Assembly: GCA_017547445.1 (NCBI GenBank)
Contig: JAFYPR010000011.1
Location: forward strand, 1 to 38,444
Origin: Clostridia bacterium
Lineage (GTDB): Bacteria > Bacillota > Clostridia > UMGS1883
Direction: 5' to 3'
Length of the DNA: 38,444 nucleotides
Each line of letters starts with the position of its first letter. The stretch's first letter is position 1. A program made the translations under genes and the position numbers. Below the pieces are notes generated by a model. The model was not told the origin of the DNA. It saw nothing but the letters and a program-made list of their open reading frames with translations, and did no database searches. This document shows, piece after piece, positions 24,491 to 38,444 of the stretch.

Positions 24491-24553
24491 AAATACAAGT
24501 ATGGGTTAGTGTGCCCTTTTTCAGAATTTTCTCGGAGTGAAGGGGGAACAGAT

Positions 24554-25537
24554 ATGACTATTGTAGTAACAGGCGGTGCCGGGTTTATAGGTTCAAATTT
24601 CATATTCTACATCATGAAAAAATATCCTGATTACAGGGTTGTTTGCCTTGATAAACTCACATATGCAGGCAATATTTCAACACTTAAGCCTGTGGAGGAC
24701 AAGCCGAATTTCACCTTTGTAAAGATGGATATCTGTGACAGAGGAGCAGTATATAAGCTGTTTGAAGAAGAGAAGCCCGATGTGGTTATTAACTTTGCGG
24801 CAGAAAGTCATGTTGACCGTTCAATCGAAAATCCTGAAATTTTTCTGGCAACAAATATTAAAGGGACATTAGTTCTGATGGACGCATGTCTTGAATACGG
24901 CGTTAAAAGGTTTCATCAGGTATCTACCGATGAGGTTTACGGTGACCTTCCTTTGGATCATCCCGAGCTTTTATTTACTGAAGATATGCCGCTTAAACCA
25001 TCTTCGCCTTATTCGTCAAGTAAAGCGGGTGCTGATTTACTGGCTCTGGCGTATTACAGGACATATAATCTGCCTGTGACGATTTCGCGGTGCTCAAATA
25101 ATTACGGACCGTATCATTTTCCCGAGAAGCTTATACCGCTTGCAATTATGAATGCGACAGGCGGGAAGAATATCCCTGTTTACGGTGAGGGTAAAAATGT
25201 TCGTGACTGGTTGTATGTGGAGGACCATTGTAAGGCTCTTGATCTTGTAATCCATAAAGGCAGACTTGGTGAGGTTTATAATATAGGCGGCCGCAGCGAA
25301 AAAAGCAACATTGATGTTGTTAAAACCATATGTAAATGCCTTGGTAAGGACGAAAGTCTTATTACATATGTTGCCGACAGAAAAGGGCACGATATGCGAT
25401 ATGGTATAGATTTTTCTAAAATTTCCCACGAGTTGGGATGGGTTCCCGAGGTTAAGTTTGATGATGGTATTAAAAAGACTGTACAGTGGTATCTGGAGAA
25501 CAGAGACTGGTGGGAACAATTGTCAGTAGTTGAATAA
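24554..25537 (+). CDS. rfbB: dTDP-glucose 4,6-dehydratase
   Basis: This extended SDR enzyme converts dTDP-glucose to dTDP-4-keto-6-deoxyglucose. I place the start at ATG 24554 (327 aa), 7 bases after GAAGGGGG and at the NAD-binding motif [12 protein letters not shown] (4-15). The dehydratase active-site T125-D126-E127 (STDEVYGD) and Y153-x3-K157 (SPYSSSK) are present. It is the first gene of the glycan operon. Its usual partners for dTDP-rhamnose (rfbA, rfbC, rfbD) are not in the window. They may lie elsewhere, or the product may feed another 6-deoxy sugar. Confidence 0.92.
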
Positions 25538-25574
25538 ATTAAGTTTAAATATATTTAGTACGGAGGAGATTGTC

Positions 25575-26816
25575 ATGAAAAAATACAAAATAGCAGTTGC
25601 AGGTACAGGGTATGTAGGCTTATCCATTGCCACGCTTTTAGCACAGAATCATACTGTTACAGCGGTGGATATCATTCCCGAAAAGGTTGAGATGATTAAC
25701 AATCGTAAATCGCCTATTCAGGATGATTATATCGAAAAGTACCTTGCAGAAAAGGATTTGGACCTTACTGCAACTCTTGACGCTAAGAGTGCTTACGAAA
25801 ACGCAGATTTTGTTGTCATTGCGGCACCTACAAATTACGATTCAAAGAAGAATTTCTTTGATACAAGCGCAGTTGAAGCTGTTATCGGGCTTGTTATGGA
25901 GTATAATCCCGAGGCAATTATGGTTATCAAGTCCACAATTCCCGTAGGCTATACAGAATCAGTCCGTGAAAGAATGGGTTGCCGTAATATTATGTTCAGT
26001 CCTGAATTTTTAAGAGAATCAAAGGCTTTGTATGATAATCTTTATCCTTCAAGAATTATTGTTGGTACAGATATGAAGGATGAACGTCTTGTTAATGCTG
26101 CCCATGAGTTTGCCGCTCTTTTACAGGAGGGCGCAATCAAAGAAGATGTTGATACTCTCTTTATGGGCTTTACCGAAGCCGAAGCAGTTAAGCTTTTTGC
26201 CAACACATACCTTGCATTGAGAGTTTCTTACTTTAACGAGCTTGATACATATGCTGAAATGAAGGGCTTGAATACTCAACAGATTATTGACGGTGTATGT
26301 CTTGATCCGAGAATTGGCTCACATTATAATAACCCTTCCTTTGGTTACGGCGGTTACTGTCTGCCTAAGGATACAAAGCAGCTTCTTGCAAATTATCAGG
26401 ATGTGCCTCAGAACATGATGAGCGCAATTGTTGAAAGTAACAGAACAAGAAAAGACTTTATTGCTGACCGCATTCTTGAAATGGCGGGTGCATACGGCGC
26501 AAATGATTCCTGGGACAAAGATAAGGAAAAGGAAGTTACAATCGGCGTTTACCGTCTTACTATGAAGTCCAATTCCGATAACTTCCGTCAGAGCAGTATT
26601 CAGGGTGTTATGAAGAGAGTAAAGGCAAAGGGTGCCAATATTGTGATTTATGAGCCCACATTAGAGGACGGAAGCACATTCTTCGGAAGCAGGGTTGTAA
26701 ACGACCTTGAAGAATTTAAGAAAATCAGCGGTGCGATTATCGCAAACAGATATGACTCTATCCTTGACGATGTGGCGGATAAGGTTTATACAAGAGACGT
26801 ATTCAGAAGAGACTGA
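25575..26816 (+). CDS. ugd: UDP-glucose 6-dehydrogenase
   Basis: This enzyme oxidises UDP-glucose twice to UDP-glucuronate. ATG 25575 (413 aa) follows GGAGGAG by 6 bases and begins at the Rossmann motif [11 protein letters not shown] (7-17). The UDP-binding centre has [20 protein letters not shown] (141-160), and the catalytic Cys is C262 in [15 protein letters not shown], the pattern of the short E. coli-type Ugd. It probably works with the epimerase at 34341-35393 to supply UDP-GlcA and UDP-GalA. Confidence 0.95.
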
Positions 26817-26834: not shown

Positions 26835-28061
26835 ATGAAAATCCTGCTCGTTAACAAGTTTCATAATATACACGGCGGCTCGGAAACCTATTATTTTTCT
26901 CTTGGAGAAATGCTTGGTAAGGCAGGATGCGATGTTATCTACTTTTCCATGAAGGATGAGGAAAACGAGCCTTGCGCTACGGAAGAATATTTCGTTGAAA
27001 ACGTGGATTTCAATGCCAGAATGAGCGTTGGAAAGACTTTGAAAACTGCTATTAAGCTTCTGTATTCCTTTGAAGCGAAAGAAAAGTTTGAAAAGCTTAT
27101 AAGGGATGAAAGACCTGATATAATTCATCTTAATCTCTTTCAAAGTCAGCTGACGGGCTCTGTTGTAGATGCGGCGAAGAAATATAATATTCCCATTGTG
27201 CACACGGCACATGACCTTAAGAGCATTTGTCCTAACTATAAGATGCTTAACAATGGAAAAATTTGTGAAAGGTGCATCAGAGGGAATTATACAAACTGCT
27301 TTAAGTCAGGTTGCATGAAAAATTCGAAGAGAAAGAGCCTTCTTGCAACACTGGAGGCTTATGTGTACAAGCTTATCGGTACATACAGAAAGCTTGATGT
27401 AATAATCACACCTTCGGAGTTTTACAAGAGGAAGATTCTTGATGCAAATGTGACTGACTGTGAAATTATTCACATGAAAAATTTCTTACCTTCAGGTACC
27501 GAATACAAACTGAGTAATGCGGGGGATTACCTTCTCTTTTTCGGCAGATTAAGCGAAGAGAAGGGGATTATATCCCTGCTTGAGGCTTATAAAAAAGCAG
27601 ATGTTGATAAGCCTTTGTACATTGTTGGCAAAGGTCCCATGGAAGAAGAGATAAGAGAATATATTGATAAAAATACCCTTGCAGATAAGGTTTTTCTTAC
27701 AGGTTTTAAAAAGAAAAATGAGCTTAAGAAAATAATAGAGGCTTCTATATGTGTATGCCTTATTAGTGAGTGGTATGAAAATTGCCCTTGCTCGGTGATG
27801 GAGGCAATGGCGATGGGGAAGCCTGTTATTGCAAATGACATTGGCGGACTTTCTGAAATCGTGAAGGATGGGGAAACAGGTTTTGTTGTGCCTGCCTTTG
27901 ACACAGATAAGTTAAGCTCTGCAATTGAGAGGATGTGCAATCTCACAAAAGAGGATTTGCTTGAAATGAGTAAAAATGCCCTTTTGTATGCGAAAGAGAA
28001 TTTTGACGATAAGAAGTATCTTGAAAAACTGCTCGGTATATACCGCAGTTTAGTAAAATGA
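26835..28061 (+). CDS. Glycosyltransferase, GT4-like (GT-B fold)
   Basis: This 408-residue cytosolic or peripheral-membrane sugar transferase probably adds one residue to the glycan repeat. The N-terminal acceptor domain begins MKILLVNKFHNIHGGSETYYFSLGE, with the glycine loop typical of GT4. A Cys-rich insert (ICERCIRGNYTNCFKSGC) is at about 155-172. The C-terminal donor domain has LLFFGRLSEEKGI and the E-x7-E-like motif in CPCSVMEAMAMGKPVIANDIGGLSEI. The donor sugar cannot be read from the sequence. Confidence 0.92.
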   Translation: MKILLVNKFHNIHGGSETYYFSLGEMLGKAGCDVIYFSMKDEENEPCATEEYFVENVDFNARMSVGKTLKTAIKLLYSFEAKEKFEKLIRDERPDIIHLNLFQSQLTGSVVDAAKKYNIPIVHTAHDLKSICPNYKMLNNGKICERCIRGNYTNCFKSGCMKNSKRKSLLATLEAYVYKLIGTYRKLDVIITPSEFYKRKILDANVTDCEIIHMKNFLPSGTEYKLSNAGDYLLFFGRLSEEKGIISLLEAYKKADVDKPLYIVGKGPMEEEIREYIDKNTLADKVFLTGFKKKNELKKIIEASICVCLISEWYENCPCSVMEAMAMGKPVIANDIGGLSEIVKDGETGFVVPAFDTDKLSSAIERMCNLTKEDLLEMSKNALLYAKENFDDKKYLEKLLGIYRSLVK

Positions 28062-28085: not shown

Positions 28086-29138
28086 ATGTTTGATTTAAGC
28101 TTTTATAAAGGCAAAAGGGTTTTTATAACGGGACATACAGGATTTAAAGGCTCATGGCTTTGCAAGATGCTCGCTAATGCCGGAGCTTTAGTGACAGGGT
28201 ATTCTCTGGAGCCTCCGACTAATCCTTCGCTTTATGATATTGCCGGGGTTGAAAATGATGTGGTAAGTATTATAGGCGATATAAGAGATTATGACAAATT
28301 AAAAACAGCCTTTGATAAAGCACAGCCTGAGGTTGTATTGCACCTTGCGGCTCAGCCTATTGTGCGAGATGGCTACAAGGACCCCAAGTATACCTATGAA
28401 ACAAATGTTATGGGAACTGTTAATATTTTAGAGTGTGTACGAAATTCGGATTGCGTAAAATCCTTTTTGAATGTTACCACTGATAAGGTTTATAAAAATC
28501 GGGAATGGGAGTGGGGTTATCGTGAAAACGAAGAGCTTGACGGCTTTGACCCTTATTCAAACTCCAAATCATGCTCTGAATTGGTAACACACAGCTATAA
28601 GCAGAGCTTTTTTGCAGATGGTAATGTTCCCATTTCCACTGCAAGAGCAGGCAATGTAATCGGCGGCGGTGATTTTGCAAACGACAGAATAATCCCGGAC
28701 TGTGTACGTGCAGCAATGATGAAAGAAAATATAATTGTGCGTAACCCTCATTCCACAAGACCCTTTCAGCACGTTTTAGAGCCGCTTTATGCTTATCTTA
28801 TGATTGTGGCAAAGCAGTATGAAGATGCGGGCCTTGCAGGATATTACAATGTGGGACCTGATGATGCGGATTGCTTAAGAACAGGTGCTTTGGTCGACTT
28901 GTTTGCGAATGAGTGGGGAGAAGGACTCAAGTGGATTAATAAATCTGACGGCGGACCTCATGAAGCAAGCTTTTTGAAGCTTGACTGCTCAAAATTGAAA
29001 AAGACCTTTGACTGGAAGCCTAAGTGGAATATTGAAAAAGCCATAGAAAAGACTGTTGAATGGTCAAAATGCTATATATCAGGCGGAGATATCCGTGAAT
29101 GCATGGATAGGCAAATTGAGGAGTTTTTAGGAGAATAA
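28086..29138 (+). CDS. rfbG: CDP-glucose 4,6-dehydratase
   Basis: This extended SDR enzyme makes CDP-4-keto-6-deoxyglucose, the entry to CDP-3,6-dideoxyhexoses. The 350-residue protein has the subfamily's NAD motif GHTGFKGSW (16-24), TTDKVYKN (131-138, K in place of the E of RfbB) and Y157-x3-K161 (FDPYSNSKS). These features separate it from RfbB. The next gene is rfbH, the following pathway step, 1 base downstream. The cytidylyltransferase RfbF that supplies CDP-glucose is not in the window. Confidence 0.95.
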   Translation: MFDLSFYKGKRVFITGHTGFKGSWLCKMLANAGALVTGYSLEPPTNPSLYDIAGVENDVVSIIGDIRDYDKLKTAFDKAQPEVVLHLAAQPIVRDGYKDPKYTYETNVMGTVNILECVRNSDCVKSFLNVTTDKVYKNREWEWGYRENEELDGFDPYSNSKSCSELVTHSYKQSFFADGNVPISTARAGNVIGGGDFANDRIIPDCVRAAMMKENIIVRNPHSTRPFQHVLEPLYAYLMIVAKQYEDAGLAGYYNVGPDDADCLRTGALVDLFANEWGEGLKWINKSDGGPHEASFLKLDCSKLKKTFDWKPKWNIEKAIEKTVEWSKCYISGGDIRECMDRQIEEFLGE

Positions 29139-29139
29139 T

Positions 29140-30480
29140 ATGGAAAACCGAAAAAATGAACAGGAAGCCAGAGAGCAAATCAAGGCTTTGGTTAAAGAAT
29201 ACTACCATGATTTTAAAGAAAAGAAAGAGCCTTTTTGTGAAGGTGACAGAATAAGCTATGCATCACGTGTGTTTGATGAAAAGGAAATGTGCGCATTGAC
29301 GGATGCTATGCTCGATTTTTGGCTGACAACAGGTCGCTTTGCAGATGAGTTTGAAAAGGAATTTGCAAAATGGATAGGTGTTAAATATGCACATCTCGTA
29401 AACTCAGGCTCAAGTGCAAACCTTATTGCTTTTATGGTGCTCACATCACCTGAATTAGGCGAGAGACAAGTTAAGAGAGGCGATGAGGTTATAACCGTTG
29501 CCTGTGGTTTTCCCACTACTGTTACACCCGTGTTGCAGTATGGTGCTGTGCCTGTTTTTGTGGATGTGACAATTCCCCAGTACAATATTGATGTGACAAA
29601 GCTTGAAGAGGCTTTAAGCGATAAGACTAAGGCTGTTATGATTGCCCATACCTTGGGTAACCCATTTAACTTAAAGGCAGTAAAGGAATTCTGCGATAAG
29701 CATAATTTATGGCTTGTTGAAGACAATTGTGATGCATTGGGCAGTGAATATACAATTGACTCTGTAACTAAGTTTACAGGTACGTGGGGCGATATCGGTA
29801 CAAGCAGTTTTTATCCGCCTCATCATATGACAATGGGCGAAGGCGGTTGCGTATATACAAATAATCCGCTTTTGCACAGACTTATTTTATCCTTCCGTGA
29901 TTGGGGCAGAGACTGTATTTGTCCTTCAGGACAGGACAACTTCTGTAATCACCGTTTTGACGGTCAGTACGGTCTGTTGCCTTTAGGTTATGACCATAAG
30001 TATGTTTATAGCCATTTCGGATATAACCTTAAGGTTACCGATATGCAGGCGGCAATAGGCTGTGAGCAGTTAAAGAAATTCCCTTCTTTTATTGAAAGGA
30101 GAAAGCATAATTGGTTAAGGCTGAGAAAAGCACTTGAGTGTGTAGAGGATAAATTAATTCTCCCTGCTCCTTGTGCAAACAGTGACCCTTCCTGGTTTGG
30201 CTTTCTTATCACAGCGAAAGAAGGCAGTAACCTCAAGAGAAACGACATAACAAGATATATTGAAGAACACAATATACAGACAAGACTTTTGTTCTCGGGT
30301 AATCTTATAAAGCACCCATGCTTTGACAGTATAAGAGGAACGGATGCTTACAGAGTATCGGGAGACTTGACTGTAACCGATTATATCATGAACAATACCT
30401 TCTGGGTTGGTGTATACCCCGGAATGACAGACGAAATGATTGATTATATGGCAAAGGTTATAATTGAAGCAGTAAGATAA
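29140..30480 (+). CDS. rfbH: CDP-4-dehydro-6-deoxyglucose 3-dehydrase (E1)
   Basis: This PMP-dependent iron-sulfur enzyme removes the C3 hydroxyl of CDP-4-keto-6-deoxyglucose. The 446-residue protein has the DegT/AHBA aminotransferase fold, but the PLP lysine is replaced by His (H228 in SSFYPPHHMTMGEGG), the hallmark of E1. The [2Fe-2S] ligand pattern C259-x-C261-x7-C269 with an upstream C197 agrees with the Yersinia enzyme. E1 needs an NADH-dependent flavin/iron-sulfur reductase (E3: AscD, DdhD or RfbI). None is encoded in the window, so a distant reductase must serve it. Confidence 0.95.
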   Translation: MENRKNEQEAREQIKALVKEYYHDFKEKKEPFCEGDRISYASRVFDEKEMCALTDAMLDFWLTTGRFADEFEKEFAKWIGVKYAHLVNSGSSANLIAFMVLTSPELGERQVKRGDEVITVACGFPTTVTPVLQYGAVPVFVDVTIPQYNIDVTKLEEALSDKTKAVMIAHTLGNPFNLKAVKEFCDKHNLWLVEDNCDALGSEYTIDSVTKFTGTWGDIGTSSFYPPHHMTMGEGGCVYTNNPLLHRLILSFRDWGRDCICPSGQDNFCNHRFDGQYGLLPLGYDHKYVYSHFGYNLKVTDMQAAIGCEQLKKFPSFIERRKHNWLRLRKALECVEDKLILPAPCANSDPSWFGFLITAKEGSNLKRNDITRYIEEHNIQTRLLFSGNLIKHPCFDSIRGTDAYRVSGDLTVTDYIMNNTFWVGVYPGMTDEMIDYMAKVIIEAVR

Positions 30481-30495
30481 CTGAGGAGATTTTGA

Positions 30496-32328
30496 ATGAA
30501 GATACGTTTGGCGGACTATGTTGCAGACTTTCTTGCATCCTGTGGCGTGAGTGACGTTTTCAGTGTTGTGGGAGGCGGTGCAATGCATCTTAACGATGCA
30601 TTCGGTCACCATGAAAAGTTACATGTAACATACAATCATCACGAGCAGGCATGTGCAATAGCTGCAGAAGCCTATGCAAGAATTGACAATAAAATAGCCG
30701 CTGTATGCGTAACAACAGGACCCGGAGGCACAAATGCACTGACAGGTGTGCTTGGAGGGTGGCTTGATTCAATCCCCATGTTTATAATAAGCGGACAGGT
30801 GAGATATGATACAACTGCACGTTATGCAATGCAGTTTACGGACGGATTGCCACTTCGTGCGGTGGGGGATCAGGAGTATGATATTGTAAAATCAGCTGAG
30901 CATATGACAAAGTATGCGGTAATGCTTGAAAATCCTCTTGACATCCGCTATTGTCTGGAAAAAGCATGGCATCTGGCAACAAGCGGGAGATGCGGCCCTG
31001 TGTGGGTTGATATTCCTGTAAATTTCCAAGGTATGTTTATTGAAACTGATGATTTGAAGGGTTATGACTGTACAGAAGATGATAAGCTGTTGCCCGAAGA
31101 GGTTTCGGATGATGTTATAGATGATGTGATAGAAGAGATTAAAAAGGCAAAGCGTCCTGTTTTGCACGCAGGCTACGGTATCAGATTGTCAGGAGGCTAT
31201 GAAGCTTTCAGAAGAGTTATCAAAAAGCTGAATATCCCCGTTGTAACCTATTGGAATGCAGTTGACCTCATTGAAGATGATAATCCTTTATATACGGGCA
31301 GAGCAGGGAATATGGGCGACAGAGCAGGTAACTGGGCAATACAGAATGCAGATTTGATTGTTGCCATAGGTACACGTATTTCTATCAGACAGGTAGGCTA
31401 TAACTGGAAAACATGGGCAAGATGTGCCCGTGTTGTCATGGTTGATATAGACCGTGCTGAAATGAAGAAGCATACAATCCATGTAGATATGCCCATCTGG
31501 GCAGATGCAAAGGGTTTTCTTGAAAAATTAGATGAAAGGCTCACCTTGCCATTAGATGAAAAGAGTGAATGGCTTACAAAGTGTGAGGGTTGGAAGAAAA
31601 ATTATCCTGTTGTGACAAAGAAACAGGAGGAGTATAATGATGATGGCGTAAATGTTTATGCATTTATGAAATACATGAGCTCAAGCTTACCCGAAGGAAG
31701 TCTTACGGCTGTTTCCAACGGAGCCTGCTGTGTTGTGGGAAATCAGGCTTTTGTTATAAAAAATGGCTCAAGAATGACAAACAACAGTGCTGTTGCGAGC
31801 ATGGGATACGGACTTCCCGCATCAATCGGCACATGTATAGCTTCGGGCAGACGTGATACAGTTTGTCTTGAGGGCGATGGCAGTATAATGATGAATTTGC
31901 AGGAATTGATGACTGTTATTACAAATAAACTGCCCATTAAAATTTTTCTCATAAACAACGAGGGATATCATTCTATAAGGCTTACACAGAATAATTTGTT
32001 TAAGGAAAAATCAAAGATTGGTATCGGTCCCGAGTCGGGAGATTTATCCTTCCCTGAATTTAAAAAGATTGCTGACGCCTTTGGCTACAGATATTACAGG
32101 GCGACAACCAACGAAGAAATGCGATGTGTTGTTGATGAGGTGCTTACTCTTGAAGGTGCCGTATTCTGTGAAATTTTTACTGATACAGAGCAGGTCTGGG
32201 AGCCTAAGAGCAGTACAAAAAGACTTGAGGACGGAACATTGGTAAGTCCGCCATTAGAGGATTTGGCTCCGTTTTTACCAAGAGAAGAACTGAAAGATAT
32301 AATGTGTATTCCCTTACTGGAGGAATAA
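30496..32328 (+). CDS. ThDP-dependent acetolactate synthase-like enzyme (YerE-like candidate)
   Basis: This 610-residue enzyme has the three-domain fold of acetohydroxyacid synthase: PYR domain with catalytic Glu E50 (NHHEQA), a middle domain (about 190-345) and a PP domain with the ThDP motif GDGS...NN (460-488). It sits directly after rfbG-rfbH and before a short-chain reductase, with no ilvN, ilvC or other branched-chain amino acid gene nearby. In Yersinia, YerE uses pyruvate to add a two-carbon unit to C4 of CDP-3,6-dideoxy-4-ketoglucose on the way to yersiniose. The same step is the best reading here. Which acyl donor and carbon are used is inference. Confidence 0.8.
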   Translation: MKIRLADYVADFLASCGVSDVFSVVGGGAMHLNDAFGHHEKLHVTYNHHEQACAIAAEAYARIDNKIAAVCVTTGPGGTNALTGVLGGWLDSIPMFIISGQVRYDTTARYAMQFTDGLPLRAVGDQEYDIVKSAEHMTKYAVMLENPLDIRYCLEKAWHLATSGRCGPVWVDIPVNFQGMFIETDDLKGYDCTEDDKLLPEEVSDDVIDDVIEEIKKAKRPVLHAGYGIRLSGGYEAFRRVIKKLNIPVVTYWNAVDLIEDDNPLYTGRAGNMGDRAGNWAIQNADLIVAIGTRISIRQVGYNWKTWARCARVVMVDIDRAEMKKHTIHVDMPIWADAKGFLEKLDERLTLPLDEKSEWLTKCEGWKKNYPVVTKKQEEYNDDGVNVYAFMKYMSSSLPEGSLTAVSNGACCVVGNQAFVIKNGSRMTNNSAVASMGYGLPASIGTCIASGRRDTVCLEGDGSIMMNLQELMTVITNKLPIKIFLINNEGYHSIRLTQNNLFKEKSKIGIGPESGDLSFPEFKKIADAFGYRYYRATTNEEMRCVVDEVLTLEGAVFCEIFTDTEQVWEPKSSTKRLEDGTLVSPPLEDLAPFLPREELKDIMCIPLLEE

Positions 32329-32329
32329 T

Positions 32330-33229
32330 ATGATAAAAAGAGCTGTGATTTCAGGTGCAACAGGCGCTATCGGCACCGCACTTATAGAAGAACTTACAGA
32401 TAAAGGATTGGAAGTACTTGTCCTTTTGAGAGAAGGCTCAGAGAGGAATGACAATGTTCCCTCTTCAAGCCTTGTAACAAAAAAGTATTGTGATTTGAAG
32501 GATTTTGAATCCATGCAGAACGATATGGGCAAGGAATATGATGTGTTTTATCATTTTGCATGGATGGGTACAACGGGCGAAGCTCGAAATGATATGTACC
32601 TGCAGAACATGAATGTTAAGTATGCTCTTGATGCAGTTAGTCTTGCCAAAAGATTAGGTTGCAAAACCTTTATAGGCGCAGGCAGTCAGGCTGAGTATGG
32701 CAGATGTGAGGGCGTATTGACACCGGGAACTTTGCCAAATCCCGAAACAGGCTACGGCATGGCAAAGCTTTGTGCAGGCTTTATGACAAGAAAGCTTGCC
32801 GGAGATTTGGGTGTGAAGCACATATGGGTAAGGGTTTTAAGTGTTTACGGAAAAAATGATACACCAAAAAGTATGGTTATGAGTACCGTAAACAAGCTTA
32901 AAAATAATATTGTACCAGAATTTACAAAAGGTGAGCAGATGTGGGATTATCTCAATTCTTCTGATGCGGCAAGGGCGTTTTATCTTTTAGGAGAAAAGGG
33001 AATTGACGGAAAAACCTATATTTTAGGCTCGGGCTGTGCAAAGCCTTTGAAAGAATATATTGAAATCATAAAAAATGTTGTTAAACCCAATTGTGAGATA
33101 AAGCTTGGTGCACTGCCTTATGCTGATAAGCAGATAATGCACCTTCAGGCAGATATAAGTGAATTGAAGAAGGATACGGGCTTTGAACCAAAGGTTAGTT
33201 TTGAAGACGGAATAAAGAGTTTATTGTAA
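32330..33229 (+). CDS. NAD(P)-dependent sugar epimerase/reductase (extended SDR)
   Basis: This 299-residue SDR has the nucleotide-binding loop SGATGAIG (8-15), GAGSQAEYG with the catalytic Ser region (about 118-126) and Y-x3-K in TGYGMAKLC. The length and the GSQAEYG motif recall CDP-abequose synthase (RfbJ) and related keto-sugar reductases. It starts 1 base after the ThDP gene and so probably reduces the product of that enzyme (YerF-like role), finishing the CDP-sugar. An epimerase role is the alternative. Confidence 0.78.
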   Translation: MIKRAVISGATGAIGTALIEELTDKGLEVLVLLREGSERNDNVPSSSLVTKKYCDLKDFESMQNDMGKEYDVFYHFAWMGTTGEARNDMYLQNMNVKYALDAVSLAKRLGCKTFIGAGSQAEYGRCEGVLTPGTLPNPETGYGMAKLCAGFMTRKLAGDLGVKHIWVRVLSVYGKNDTPKSMVMSTVNKLKNNIVPEFTKGEQMWDYLNSSDAARAFYLLGEKGIDGKTYILGSGCAKPLKEYIEIIKNVVKPNCEIKLGALPYADKQIMHLQADISELKKDTGFEPKVSFEDGIKSLL

Positions 33230-33241
33230 AGTGGTGATTGT

Positions 33242-34339
33242 ATGAAAATCGCAATGCTTGGACACAAGACAATACCCTCAAGAAAAGGGGGCGTTGAAAT
33301 CGTTGTAGGTGAAATTGCAAGCCGTATGGCAGAAAAGGGGCATAGTGTTGTATGCTATAACCGAAACGAAAAGGATGAGGTTAAATTAAAGGAATATAAG
33401 GGTGCGAAGCTCAAGTATGTTTTTACCGTTCATATGCGTGGAGCGGCGGCAATGAGTTCATCGTTTTTTGCAGCATTAAGAGCGGCATTCGGCAGATACG
33501 ATATTGTGCATTTTCATGCAGAGGGGCCTTCTGCAATGTGTTTTTTGCCCAAGCTTTTCGGAAAAAGGATTATTGTGACCGTACATGGTCTTGACTGGCA
33601 GAGGGATAAATGGGGCGGTTTTGCAACAAAATACTTGCTTTTGGGCGAAAAAATGGCTGTCAGGTTTGCTGATGAGATAATTGTTTTATCTGAAAACTTA
33701 AAGAAATATTTTAAAGATACATATAATCGGAAAACAGTGCTTATCCCCAACGGCATTGAAAAGCCTGAGATTATTCCTGCAGATTTGATAACAGAGAAGT
33801 GGGGACTTAAAAAGGACGGATACATACTGTTTTTGGGAAGAATTGTTCCTGAAAAGGGTATTGGGTATCTGGTTGATGCCTATGAAGAAATCAGCACCGA
33901 TAAAAAGCTTGTTATTGCAGGCGGTTCAAGTGATACAGACTCTTTCAGAAAAGAGCTTATGGACAGATGCAAAGATAATAAAAACATTATTTTTACCGAT
34001 TTTGTTCAGGGAAGAGAGCTTGAAGAGTTATTCAGTAATGCTTATATTTATGTTCTGCCGTCTGATTTGGAGGGCATGCCCATAAGCTTGCTTGAGGCAA
34101 TGAGCTACTCTAATTGTTGTGTTACATCTGATATTCCCGAGTGCACGGAGGCTGTGGGTGATATGGCAATAAGCTTTAGAAAGAGCGATATCCGTGATTT
34201 GGCAGAAAAGCTTCAGATGCTTTGTCAAAATGAAAATATTGTTTTTAAATATAAAAATTCCGCATCGGAGTATATTTGCGGAAAATATAATTGGGACAAT
34301 ATTGTTGATGAAACTTTAAAAATTTACGGAGGAAATTGA
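33242..34339 (+). CDS. Glycosyltransferase, GT4 with DUF1972-type N-terminus
   Basis: This 365-residue GT-B enzyme begins MKIAMLGHKTIPSRKGGVEIVVGEIASRM, the signature of the DUF1972/GT4 group that includes capsule rhamnosyl- and related transferases. The donor domain has YILFLGRIVPEKGIGYLVDAY and the acidic motif in PSDLEGMPISLLEAMSY. It sits between the CDP-sugar reductase gene and the UDP-glucuronate epimerase gene. It may use one of those sugars, but the donor is unknown. Confidence 0.9.
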   Translation: MKIAMLGHKTIPSRKGGVEIVVGEIASRMAEKGHSVVCYNRNEKDEVKLKEYKGAKLKYVFTVHMRGAAAMSSSFFAALRAAFGRYDIVHFHAEGPSAMCFLPKLFGKRIIVTVHGLDWQRDKWGGFATKYLLLGEKMAVRFADEIIVLSENLKKYFKDTYNRKTVLIPNGIEKPEIIPADLITEKWGLKKDGYILFLGRIVPEKGIGYLVDAYEEISTDKKLVIAGGSSDTDSFRKELMDRCKDNKNIIFTDFVQGRELEELFSNAYIYVLPSDLEGMPISLLEAMSYSNCCVTSDIPECTEAVGDMAISFRKSDIRDLAEKLQMLCQNENIVFKYKNSASEYICGKYNWDNIVDETLKIYGGN

Positions 34340-34340
34340 A

Positions 34341-35393
34341 ATGAGCAAGCAGATTATTGATTTGAAGGGAAAGACTGTTTTGGTAACAGGTGCGGCGGGC
34401 TTTATCGGTGCAAACCTGGTAAAGAGGCTGTATAATGACATTGAGAATGTTAAGGTAATAGGTATTGACAATGTGAATGACTATTACGATATTCGTCTTA
34501 AGGATTACAGACTTAAAGAGCTTGGTGAATACGAATCCTTTGAATTTATCAAGGGAAGCATTGCAGACAAGGCGATAATAACTGAGGTTTTTGAAAAGTA
34601 TAAGCCTTCTGTTGTTGTTAATCTTGCAGCTCAGGCGGGTGTAAGATATTCAATTACAAACCCTGATGTGTATATTGAAGCTAACCTTATCGGTTTTTAT
34701 AATATTTTGGAGGCATGCCGTCATTACGGAGTAGAGCATCTGGTTTACGCATCTTCCTCCAGTGTTTACGGCTCAAACAAGAAGGTGCCTTATTCTACTG
34801 AGGACAAGGTTGATAACCCCGTATCCTTATATGCGGCTACGAAAAAGTCAAATGAATTGATGGCACATGCATATTCAAAGCTTTACAACATTCCTTCGAC
34901 GGGTCTTCGTTTCTTTACTGTTTACGGACCTGCGGGAAGACCCGATATGGCATACTTTGGCTTTACAAATAAGCTTGTAAAGGGTGAAAAAATTCAGATT
35001 TTCAACTACGGTAACTGCAAGAGAGACTTTACATATGTTGACGATATCGTTGAAGGTGTAATCCGTGTTATGCAGGGTGCACCCGAGAAGGAGACGGGCG
35101 AGGACGGACTTCCGCTTCCTCCTTATGCAGTTTATAATATCGGTAACAATCAGCCTGAAAATCTTCTGGACTTTGTTACAATACTTCAGGAGGAGCTTGT
35201 CAGTGCAGGCGTGCTTCCTTCAGATTATGATTTTGAAGCACATAAAGAGCTTGTACCCATGCAGCCGGGTGATGTGCCGATTACATATGCTGATACAACA
35301 GCATTGGAAGAGGATTTCGGATTTAAGCCTTCCACATCTCTCAGAGAAGGCTTGAGACGCTTTGCAATCTGGTATAAGGAATTTTATTATTAA
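34341..35393 (+). CDS. UDP-glucuronate 4-epimerase (CapI/LspL-like)
   Basis: This 350-residue extended SDR interconverts UDP-glucuronate and UDP-galacturonate. The NAD loop is TGAAGFIGAN (16-25) and the catalytic set is SSSSVYG (138-144) with Y164-x3-K168. The segments NVNDYYDIRLKDYRL (44-58) and RFFTVYGPAGRPDMAYFGFTNKL are typical of the GlcA-epimerase branch and unlike GalE. Ugd in the same operon supplies the substrate. Confidence 0.9.
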   Translation: MSKQIIDLKGKTVLVTGAAGFIGANLVKRLYNDIENVKVIGIDNVNDYYDIRLKDYRLKELGEYESFEFIKGSIADKAIITEVFEKYKPSVVVNLAAQAGVRYSITNPDVYIEANLIGFYNILEACRHYGVEHLVYASSSSVYGSNKKVPYSTEDKVDNPVSLYAATKKSNELMAHAYSKLYNIPSTGLRFFTVYGPAGRPDMAYFGFTNKLVKGEKIQIFNYGNCKRDFTYVDDIVEGVIRVMQGAPEKETGEDGLPLPPYAVYNIGNNQPENLLDFVTILQEELVSAGVLPSDYDFEAHKELVPMQPGDVPITYADTTALEEDFGFKPSTSLREGLRRFAIWYKEFYY

Positions 35394-35410
35394 TTTCGGG
35401 AGAGATAAAA

Positions 35411-36487
35411 TTGGCAGGTAAGAAACTAAACGGCACGGTGATTGTTACATACCGATGTAATGCAAAATGCAATATGTGCAAAAGGTATCAGTCGCCTTCA
35501 TTGCCTGAGGATGAAATTACAATTGAAGCGATAAAAAAGCTGCCTGAGATGTATTTTACAAACATAACAGGCGGTGAACCCTTTATCCGTGAGGATATTA
35601 AGGATATTGTGTGCGAATTATACAAGAAAAGCGACCGTATTGTAATCTCTACCAACGGTTTCTTTACCGAAAAGATAATTGATTTGTGCAAGGAGTTTCC
35701 AAAGGTCGGGATAAGAATTTCCATTGAAGGGTTAGAGGAAACAAACAACTCTATACGTGGCTTGGAGGATGGCTTTAACAAAGGCTACAGCACTTTAATA
35801 AAGCTTAAGGAAATGGGATTAAAGGATATCGGCTTCGGTATGACGGTGCAGGATTGTAATGCCTGTGATTTAGTTCCGCTTTATGATATATCTGATGATT
35901 TGGATATGGAATTTGCAACGGCAGCAGTTCACAACAGCTTTTACTTTGTGGAGACGGGAAATATAATACACGAGAGAGAAAAGGTTGCTCTTGCTTTTGA
36001 AGAGCTTATAAACAAGCTTTTAAGGTCAAATTCACCTAAAAAGTGGATGAGAGCATATTTTAACCACGGATTAATCAATTATGTTTATTCACAGAAGAGA
36101 CTCCTTCCTTGCGATATGAGCTTTGACACATTTTTTGTTGACCCCTACGGTGATGTGGTGCCCTGTAACGGTACACGGGAAAAAGAGGTTATGGGGAACC
36201 TTAATAAGCAGAGCTGGGACGAAATATGGAACGGTGAAAAAGCTGAAGCGGTGCGTAAAAAGGTGCGATGCTGCAGTCGTAATTGCTGGATGATAGGCTC
36301 GGTTTCGCCTGCTATGCATAAGTATATTTGGGTGCCCGGAATGTGGGTAATGTGGCATAAGCTTAAATCTCTTTTTGCAAAAAAGCCATATTCCATGTAT
36401 GAGAACAAAATTGTGCGAGAATATCGTGACGGCAAAGTAACAAAAGAAGAGCTTGACAGATGTTCAACTTGTGAGGTGTTAAAATGA
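35411..36487 (+). CDS. Radical SAM protein with SPASM-like C-terminus
   Basis: This 358-residue radical enzyme binds a [4Fe-4S] cluster and S-adenosylmethionine through C16-x3-C20-x2-C23 (YRCNAKCNMCK). The SAM-binding TGGEPF motif follows at about 53-58. The C-terminal part (PYGDVVPCNGTREKEVMGNL, then CCSRNC, and a terminal DRCSTC) looks like a SPASM or twitch domain with auxiliary cluster cysteines. The start is TTG 35411, 6 bases after GGGAGAG. No precursor peptide is visible beside it, so a ribosomal peptide role is unlikely. It may modify a sugar, lipid carrier or protein in glycan assembly. The function is unknown. Confidence 0.88.
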   Translation: MAGKKLNGTVIVTYRCNAKCNMCKRYQSPSLPEDEITIEAIKKLPEMYFTNITGGEPFIREDIKDIVCELYKKSDRIVISTNGFFTEKIIDLCKEFPKVGIRISIEGLEETNNSIRGLEDGFNKGYSTLIKLKEMGLKDIGFGMTVQDCNACDLVPLYDISDDLDMEFATAAVHNSFYFVETGNIIHEREKVALAFEELINKLLRSNSPKKWMRAYFNHGLINYVYSQKRLLPCDMSFDTFFVDPYGDVVPCNGTREKEVMGNLNKQSWDEIWNGEKAEAVRKKVRCCSRNCWMIGSVSPAMHKYIWVPGMWVMWHKLKSLFAKKPYSMYENKIVREYRDGKVTKEELDRCSTCEVLK

Positions 36488-37566
36488 ATATAGATTTTTA
36501 CATAAGCAGTTTATCAGGTGGCGGTGCTGAAAATGTGCTTACAACTTTGGCAAAACAGCTTAAAAACAGCGGACACAGGATAAGCATTACATCTTTGGAG
36601 AAGAGACCTCAGTTTTATAATGTTGACGAGGGTATAGAGCTTATAAAATATGACAATAAGCATAAAGGAAAGATAAAAGAGATAATTGCCGATTTTAAAG
36701 CTATAAGAACACAGCTTAAGAAAAGAGGCGAGACTGATATTTGCGTTTCTTTCTTGTCAAGATGCAATATTCAGGTTTTACTTTGTTCTCTTTTCTTAAA
36801 GAAAAAGGTTGTTGTATGTGACAGAAATAATCCTTTGATGGAGCATTCGAAGCTGGTTTTCTGGCTCAGTAATCAGATTTACCGTTTAGCATCGGCTGTT
36901 TTTGTACAGACAGAGCAGATAAAGAGCTTTTATCCGAAATATCTGCAGAAAAAGATGTATGTTATTGAAAATACACTTGATACAGAAAAGCTTGACGGAC
37001 AATGCGAGGGAGAAATTGAACAGGAAAATACAATTATAAGCATAGGAAGGCTTGAACCGCAGAAGGATTTTAAAACATTGATTTCAGCCTTTGAAAAAAT
37101 TGCAGAAAAGTACCCTGACTGGAAGGTTAAGATTTTCGGCAAGGGTGATATGAAGGATGAATTACAGGAATTTATTGATAATAAAGGATTAGGTGAAAGA
37201 GTTCTTTTATGCGGAAGAACAGAAACGCCCTTTAAGGAACTAAAAAAATCGAAAATTTTCGTTTTATCATCCCATTATGAAGGCTTTCCCAATGTTTTAT
37301 GCGAGGGTATGTATGCGGGAATAGGCTGCATATCATCCGATTGCGTAAGCGGACCGAGTGAATTGATAAATGACGGTGAAAACGGTTTTTTATTCCCCGT
37401 TGGTGACGAAAAAGCTCTTGCCGGAAAGCTTGATTTATTGCTTTCTTCGGAAGAAATTTGTTCAATTATTGGAGAAAGAGCAAAGGAAACTGTTAAAAGG
37501 CTTGAATTGCCTGTGATTTGCGAAAAATGGTATAATTGTTTAAGGGGTGTGACAAATGAAACATAA
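36484..37566 (+). CDS. Glycosyltransferase, GT4 family
   Basis: This 360-residue GT-B enzyme overlaps the radical SAM gene by 4 nt (ATGA), so translation is coupled. The N-terminus [26 protein letters not shown] is the acceptor-domain glycine loop, and [20 protein letters not shown] opens the donor domain. [35 protein letters not shown] is the retaining GT4 acidic motif region, where the second Glu of E-x7-E appears replaced by Gly/Ile surroundings. Resemblance to GalNAc/Gal-transferring GT4 enzymes is general only; the donor is unknown. Confidence 0.92.
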
Positions 37567-38101
37567 AAAGCTTGTCGAACTATATGCACTTTTAATGAGT
37601 AGAAGCAATCCCAGAAAAAGGGCAGAAATTTACCGCAAAATGAATGTGTTTCATTCTATGGGTGAGCATTGTTTATTTCAACCTGTAAGCTTACCAAGTG
37701 AACCCGAGCTCGTTTCGATAGGTAATAATGTCAATATTGCAAAGGGCGTAGCCTTTGTGACACATGATGTTATTCATTCAATTTGGCATTATCAGAAGAG
37801 TGAAGATTACCCCTTTACAAAAAACAGATATTATATGGGTAAAATTGTTGTCGGTAACAACGTAATGATAGGTCAGAATGCAATTGTTATGTATAATGTA
37901 AATATCGGTAACAACGTAATCGTAGCGGCGGGTAGCGTGGTAACAAAGGATATTCCCGATGATGCAATTGTTGGCGGTAACCCTGCAAAAATAATTGGCT
38001 CAGCAAAGGATCTGGCAAATAGAAGAGCCGAATACACAGGCAATATGCCTGACAATCATGCAACCGAAAAAGAAATTGAAAAATATTTTTGGGGTGATTA
38101 A
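37556..38101 (+). CDS. Left-handed beta-helix acyltransferase (hexapeptide repeat)
   Basis: This 181-residue protein belongs to the acetyltransferases that act on sugars (maltose O-acetyltransferase/WbbJ type). Hexapeptide turns are visible at [16 protein letters not shown] (about 53-68, with the catalytic-His region FVTHDV) and in [38 protein letters not shown] (97-134), followed by the usual [11 protein letters not shown] end. It overlaps the preceding glycosyltransferase by 11 nt. It probably O-acetylates the glycan or a precursor. Confidence 0.9.
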
Positions 38102-38102
38102 G

Positions 38103-38444
38103 TTGAAGAGAATTGTTATTTTGGGTTACGGACTTTCCGGCGGCGGTGCTGAGAGAGTTTCTGCAATTGTTGCCAATTACTTTGCCGACAAAGGATATAA
38201 GGTGCTTTTTGTAGCAGCTTATTCTAAAGAAAGAGAGTACGAGCTTAATAAAGATATTTAGTATGTCGCAATAGAAACATCTTCAACAGTAGGTTATTTA
38301 AAGCTGATTGAAAGAAGCTTTAAAATTACAAGTGTTGTAAAAAAATTTAAAGCTGATATTGTATATTCGTTTATCTATTCTGAGCTTATACCCTTATCTT
38401 TGAGCAAAATTCCTGTAATTCCCTCCCTTAGGATTGACCCTAAA
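38103..38444 (+). pseudogene. Glycosyltransferase (GT4-like) interrupted by an in-frame TAG and cut by the window edge
   Basis: From TTG 38103 (GGGGTGA 5 bases upstream) the frame encodes a GT4 N-terminus, RIVILGYGLSGGGAERVSAIV... to ELNKDI, and then hits TAG at 38259-38261. The same frame continues without another stop to the window end, with normal family sequence: YVAIETSSTVGYLKLIERS, then VVKKFKADIVYSFIYSELIP and KIPVIPSLRIDPK. The protein similarity therefore runs through the stop codon. Possible reasons are a recent nonsense mutation (one base change from AAG or CAG), a sequencing error, or read-through. The 3' part lies outside the window. Confidence 0.75.

Follow-up and report, generated by a model that had tools for sequence, protein, structure and literature searches.

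A twitch-type radical SAM enzyme accompanied by two glycosyltransferases in bacterial polysaccharide loci

The polysaccharide cluster and its radical SAM gene

The window, i.e., the whole stretch of 38,444 nucleotides analysed here, is an entire contig of a clostridial genome bin with 60% completeness. Between positions 24509 and 38101 the main genes all lie on the forward strand; judged from Pfam and NCBIfam, their products are nucleotide-sugar enzymes, glycosyltransferases and an acyltransferase. The cluster is incomplete; the contig stops at position 38444, and the final complete gene before its end encodes a hexapeptide acyltransferase (37556..38101; Pfam Hexapep). The gene of interest (35411..36487, forward strand) encodes a protein of 358 amino acids. 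It begins with a TTG codon that is backed by alignment with relatives, and a GGGAGAG-like ribosome site is found ahead of it at 35398-35404. The original prediction of a radical SAM gene was borne out by the open frame, by a CxxxCxxC motif at residues 16-23 (35456..35479) and by the Pfam Radical_SAM profile (2.7e-13), and the motif together with the partial barrel core seen in Pfam, alignment, model and fold comparison places it in the superfamily. The Pfam SPASM profile also matches (2.8e-12, 47.2 bits).

The gene overlaps by 4 nt with a gene for a GT4 glycosyltransferase (36484..37566, forward strand) that is distantly PglH-like (NF050056, 175 bits against a cut-off of 600); both this overlap and the polysaccharide surroundings had been predicted and were confirmed. 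Directly upstream lies a gene for an NAD-dependent sugar epimerase (34341..35393; Pfam Epimerase), which by its motifs seems to be UDP-glucuronate 4-epimerase-like, and further upstream a gene for a nucleotide-sugar dehydrogenase of the UDP-glucose 6-dehydrogenase type (25530..26816; TIGR03026 above cut-off). Two more GT4 glycosyltransferases are encoded on the same strand: GT-A, with a cysteine-rich insert (26835..28061), and GT-B, a DUF1972 protein distantly similar to Cps2T (33242..34339). These lie 7.3 and 1.1 kb upstream of the radical SAM gene, respectively.

Protein family, cysteine pattern and predicted fold

A scan of genome contigs with the radical SAM enzyme yielded 122 relatives, and 80 of these were retained for further work. 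Four sequences that were fragments or repeats (L001, L035, L053, and L083) were left out, resulting in an alignment of 81 rows, and 68 of the 81 were used in a later alignment. Identity was 62-81% for relatives in Clostridia, 47-58% for records labelled Omnitrophota, Nitrospirae, Planctomycetota, Scalindua, Thermosulfurimonas, Acidobacteria, and others, and about 40% for Bacteroidales, Slackia, and Adlercreutzia; many of these relatives are metagenome bins and individual taxon labels may be wrong. Cultured carriers include Ruminiclostridium hungatei, Desulfosporosinus, Thermosulfurimonas dismutans, Slackia equolifaciens, and Barnesiella, and the enzyme is also encoded on plasmids of Segatella copri and Pseudobutyrivibrio xylanivorans.

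Only seven cysteines (16, 20, 23, 234, 252, 288, and 292) are invariant in the 68 aligned rows, and their spacing is identical in 65 of them; an eighth that is shared across these rows was not found. The first three are the SAM-cluster ligands, and the last four (Cx17C-x35-Cx3C; 36110..36286) are the predicted ligands of an auxiliary cluster. Cysteines 351 and 354, in a terminal CSTC, are confined to the close clostridial group and are a lineage extra. Other cysteines are conserved within particular groups, i.e., 93 in 97% and 74% of two groups, and 137 and 161 in 100% of a third. A SPASM domain is described as a seven-cysteine motif that binds two auxiliary clusters (PMC6231123), and a twitch domain as a truncated SPASM domain with cysteines for one auxiliary cluster (PMC6231123; PMC9012708). 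Because the seven invariant cysteines consist of the CxxxCxxC triad and four more, the pattern fits an enzyme of the twitch type, with one SAM cluster and one predicted auxiliary cluster, rather than a SPASM protein. The original prediction of many SPASM-like C-terminal cysteines is thus corrected: although the Pfam SPASM profile matches, the four that are invariant in the 68 rows are of the twitch type and do not make up the SPASM pattern of seven. For the same reason the enzyme lacks the cysteines for the two fully ligated SPASM clusters of anaerobic sulfatase maturases. Among the best 25 of 51 NCBIfam matches no named family reaches its cut-off (the top score is 71.1 against 170). A grouping with sulfatase or peptide maturases, which would have spoken against the original prediction, was not observed in these matches, in the cysteine pattern or at the N-terminus (see below).

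The AlphaFold2 model of the enzyme has a mean pLDDT of 92.6 and a pTM of 0.90. Invariant residues K210, R214, and N218 are placed one helical turn apart on a helix spanning residues 209-225, as seen by combining alignment and model, and could hold a phosphate or a sugar. A membrane-binding C-terminal helix was considered and rejected, as hydrophobic moments are low (0.16-0.31). The closest solved folds are the cytosylglucuronate decarboxylase BlsE (Z 22.9, rmsd 3.3 over 287 residues) and the sactipeptide maturase SkfB (Z 22.6, rmsd 3.1 over 266 residues), which are tied, followed by SuiB, sulfatase maturases, MoaA, DesII, BtrN (Z 15.9), and EpeE. Foldseek ranks 3-7 are sulfatase maturases and a sactipeptide enzyme. 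As BlsE and SkfB tie and the Foldseek ranks are of this kind, the substrate class is not settled by fold; the modelled shared fold alone does not choose between a sugar and a peptide.

The match to BlsE, which acts on a sugar carbon according to the account in PMC3715490, raises the question of whether the enzyme, like BlsE with its substrate cytosylglucuronate, removes the carboxyl group of a uronic acid residue by radical chemistry. The nucleotide-sugar dehydrogenase and the seemingly uronate-specific epimerase upstream would agree with such a reaction. These two genes are, however, linked to the enzyme in just 5 and 1 of 80 other loci, the fold match is shared with SkfB, and BlsE has a nucleoside substrate and a proposed second-cluster motif CxCxxC (PMC3715490) that differs from the Cx17C-x35-Cx3C found here. 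Decarboxylation is consequently regarded as quite unlikely, and a uronate-specific role was given up as the best reading because the uronate genes are unlinked at other loci.

The other tied fold points towards modification of a protein or peptide, e.g., a ribosomal peptide or a protein of polysaccharide assembly. SkfB, which likewise has a twitch domain, is also the top sequence match among solved chains, and SuiB and the sulfatase maturases are close folds. On the other hand SkfB is described (PMC6231123) as having a precursor peptide as well as a recognition domain at its N-terminus, and neither was seen here: the modelled core begins near residue 6, which leaves no room for a counterpart of the recognition domain, and across 81 loci none of the 135 small open reading frames lying up to 1.5 kb from the gene is shared, save among three related loci. 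This agrees with the predicted lack of a precursor peptide nearby, and the features of a leader-dependent maturase are missing at both points. Since it is glycosyltransferases that constantly accompany the enzyme, also in trans (see below), a protein or peptide substrate is considered improbable.

Two glycosyltransferases as constant partners

The enzyme family is found in many bacterial groups and is nearly always accompanied by the same two glycosyltransferases. After clustering of the neighbouring genes, a tree of the GT4 proteins was built, in which GT-B forms a clade of 63 members from 63 loci (support 0.986) and GT-A a clade of 56 members from 55 loci (support 0.833). The loci were then retyped by tblastn with each locus's own proteins excluded. 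Among the 81 loci, in which one place is counted twice (as L054 and L085), 72 had GT-B and 63 had GT-A; 59 contained both partners and 5 contained neither. For the 44 loci with 5 kb or more on each side of the gene, a set without the repeat, the numbers for GT-B, GT-A, both, and neither were 43, 40, 40, and 1, respectively. The partner was no more than 300 nt away from the enzyme match in 48 of the 72 loci with GT-B and in 39 of the 63 with GT-A. Similarly, 25 loci reached by other routes, one of which (L124) repeats L071, had GT-A in 21, GT-B in 21, and both in 18. Sequence distances of the enzyme covary with those of GT-B (r 0.825) and GT-A (r 0.643). The GT4 protein encoded by the gene that overlaps the radical SAM gene falls outside both partner clades, and its coupling to the enzyme was therefore dismissed as a functional clue.

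The order of the three genes varies: among the 59 loci with both partners GT-A is upstream and GT-B downstream in 32, both are upstream in 21, and 6 have other arrangements. The best NCBIfam match of GT-B is the beta-1,4-rhamnosyltransferase Cps2T, but the score of 110.7 bits is far below the cut-off of 500. In GT-A, cysteines 132, 144, 147, and 160 are invariant in 41 proteins from many phyla, which suggests that this GT4 glycosyltransferase has a site for a metal or a cluster.

Co-occurrence was also followed in whole genomes, where the large searches scored the top 4-8 first-look candidates of each genome. Of 247 Bacteroidales genomes, 21 carried the enzyme. Every one of these 21 was among the 31 genomes with GT-B, and 18 of them were among the 23 with GT-A. 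The probability of the overlap between enzyme and GT-B arising by chance is about 3e-23 (hypergeometric), a value that ignores kinship between genomes. The corresponding numbers for enzyme, GT-B and overlap were 3, 4, and 3 in 398 Bacillota genomes and 4, 6, and 4 in 28 genomes of the order to which the window belongs. The profiles used (A1-A3) were derived from linked loci, which biases these counts toward linked copies. Enzyme and GT-B are on separate contigs in two genomes (G169 and G462), so the link between them exceeds mere position. In G169 the enzyme on the one hand, and GT-A and GT-B on the other, are found in two separate polysaccharide clusters (L104 and L105).

GT-B without the enzyme was found in 10 of the 31 Bacteroidales genomes with GT-B, in 1 of 4 from Bacillota, and in 2 of 6 from the order; the enzyme is thus not indispensable to GT-B. 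Three such GT-B proteins fall within the clostridial GT-B clade, which reads as loss of the enzyme. It could be argued that the gene is a passenger that merely rides mobile polysaccharide islands together with GT-A and GT-B. Its patchy distribution, its plasmid copies and the occurrence of GT-B without it would all be explained in this way, but other GT4 types of the panel were present in just 14 of the 81 loci, the partners are retained when located on another contig, and the same pair recurs in distant phyla. We consider a passenger gene very improbable. A candidate replacement of the enzyme was seen in G551 (L142, 4659-8023), where an RmlD-type reductase lies between GT-A-like and GT-B-like genes in its usual place; this reading depends on a GT-B-like protein with only 34% identity.

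A candidate step in glycan assembly

The enzyme was originally suggested to carry out an unusual modification of a sugar, a lipid carrier or a protein during glycan assembly. The linkage to the same two glycosyltransferases across phyla, also on separate contigs, speaks strongly for a role in glycan assembly, although the glycosyltransferase whose gene overlaps that of the enzyme is not among the conserved partners; no observation supports a lipid carrier or a protein in particular. We lean toward the view that the twitch enzyme alters a sugar residue of the saccharide built by GT-A and GT-B. A saccharide is the suggested substrate because the glycosyltransferase pair is constant, no nucleotide-sugar pathway is constant, and no peptide substrate was detected. 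The enzyme, with its one predicted auxiliary iron-sulfur cluster, would be dedicated to one GT-A/GT-B saccharide unit. Cleavage of SAM would generate a 5'-deoxyadenosyl radical, which would abstract a carbon-bound hydrogen from one sugar residue of this saccharide. The substrate would probably be lipid-linked and be met once at least one of the two transfers has taken place; as the gene order varies, this order of steps is weakly supported. The sugar radical would then be either oxidised or re-reduced to give a keto, epimerised or otherwise altered residue.

Both outcomes have precedents in antibiotic pathways, where sugar radical SAM enzymes are reported to oxidise (BtrN and SpeY, both twitch enzymes) or to epimerise (NeoN; PMC10991966). 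BtrN, the 2-deoxy-scyllo-inosamine dehydrogenase of butirosin biosynthesis, combines a radical SAM core with a twitch domain whose auxiliary cluster is described as ligated by four cysteines (PMC9012708). The spacing of its first cysteine pair and the surrounding residues align with those of the enzyme studied here; the second pair lies beyond the aligned region. BtrN is also the more distant fold, acts on a small aminocyclitol and has no glycosyltransferase pair. The epimerases HygY, NeoN, and AviX12 and the dehydrogenase SpeY likewise bring about a radical change of a sugar but belong to antibiotic pathways; HygY (by a title cited in PMC10991966) and SpeY (by the title of its structure entry) are twitch enzymes.

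It is conceivable that the enzyme is a radical epimerase of the NeoN, HygY, and AviX12 kind, inverting one carbon of a transferred sugar with a hydrogen donor other than a family-wide cysteine. No partner reductase would be required, in agreement with its absence, and common sugars would suffice, in agreement with the lack of a conserved nucleotide-sugar pathway: none of the uronate and CDP-sugar pathway genes of the window has matches in more than 5 of the 80 other loci. In NeoN, Cys249 is reported to donate the hydrogen (PMC10991966), and the group-specific cysteines 93, 137, and 161 keep room for epimerisation here. These differ by group, however, and the donor described for NeoN has no invariant counterpart in the present family, so that epimerisation is rather unlikely, if worth keeping in mind. 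Known radical epimerases use an additional cysteine as hydrogen donor; as the seven ligands are the only invariant cysteines here, a two-electron change of the BtrN kind is slightly favoured. A keto-sugar product is argued against by the lack of a conserved reductase or aminotransferase to use it among the annotated neighbour clusters. The title of a study cited in PMC10991966 attributes to the twitch epimerase HygY a latent dehydrogenase activity once one cysteine is changed.

Twitch radical SAM enzymes are a known kind, but the subfamily and the three-gene module are without a name in Pfam and NCBIfam (for the enzyme, among the best 25 of 51 matches), and no paper on either was recognised by title or abstract start in the open-licence literature. 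The sugar diversity of bacterial capsules is usually traced to nucleotide-sugar pathways. It is plausible, although somewhat short of probable, that a radical SAM family spread over many phyla works alongside a dedicated pair of glycosyltransferases to edit a sugar already incorporated into a nascent surface polysaccharide, and that stereochemistry or oxidation state is thereby set on the glycan and not on the nucleotide sugar. If so, some sugars are remade on the chain and nucleotide-sugar genes alone cannot predict glycan structures. GT-A, the enzyme and GT-B provide a defined three-gene test set in cultured bacteria, e.g., Ruminiclostridium hungatei and Barnesiella.

Radical SAM genes that adjoin a glycosyltransferase have been described on Brachyspira plasmids (PMC4267127), but they appear to encode a different protein, as none of the four records listed in a search of plasmids was from Brachyspira. 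Three unverified faecal records filed as phage (L119, L120, and L121) carry the enzyme together with GT-A and GT-B. A phage origin was rejected as a scan of viral contigs revealed no relative of the enzyme, and the three are probably bacterial contigs. Finally, the genes between GT-A and GT-B in the window (28086-33229) encode two enzymes that exceed their NCBIfam cut-offs, CDP-glucose 4,6-dehydratase and RfbH, along with an acetolactate-synthase-like enzyme and a short-chain dehydrogenase. The block resembles a pathway for a branched dideoxy-sugar of the yersiniose type, here in the genome of a gut clostridial bacterium, and it recurs in another locus (L007) at 71-89% identity.
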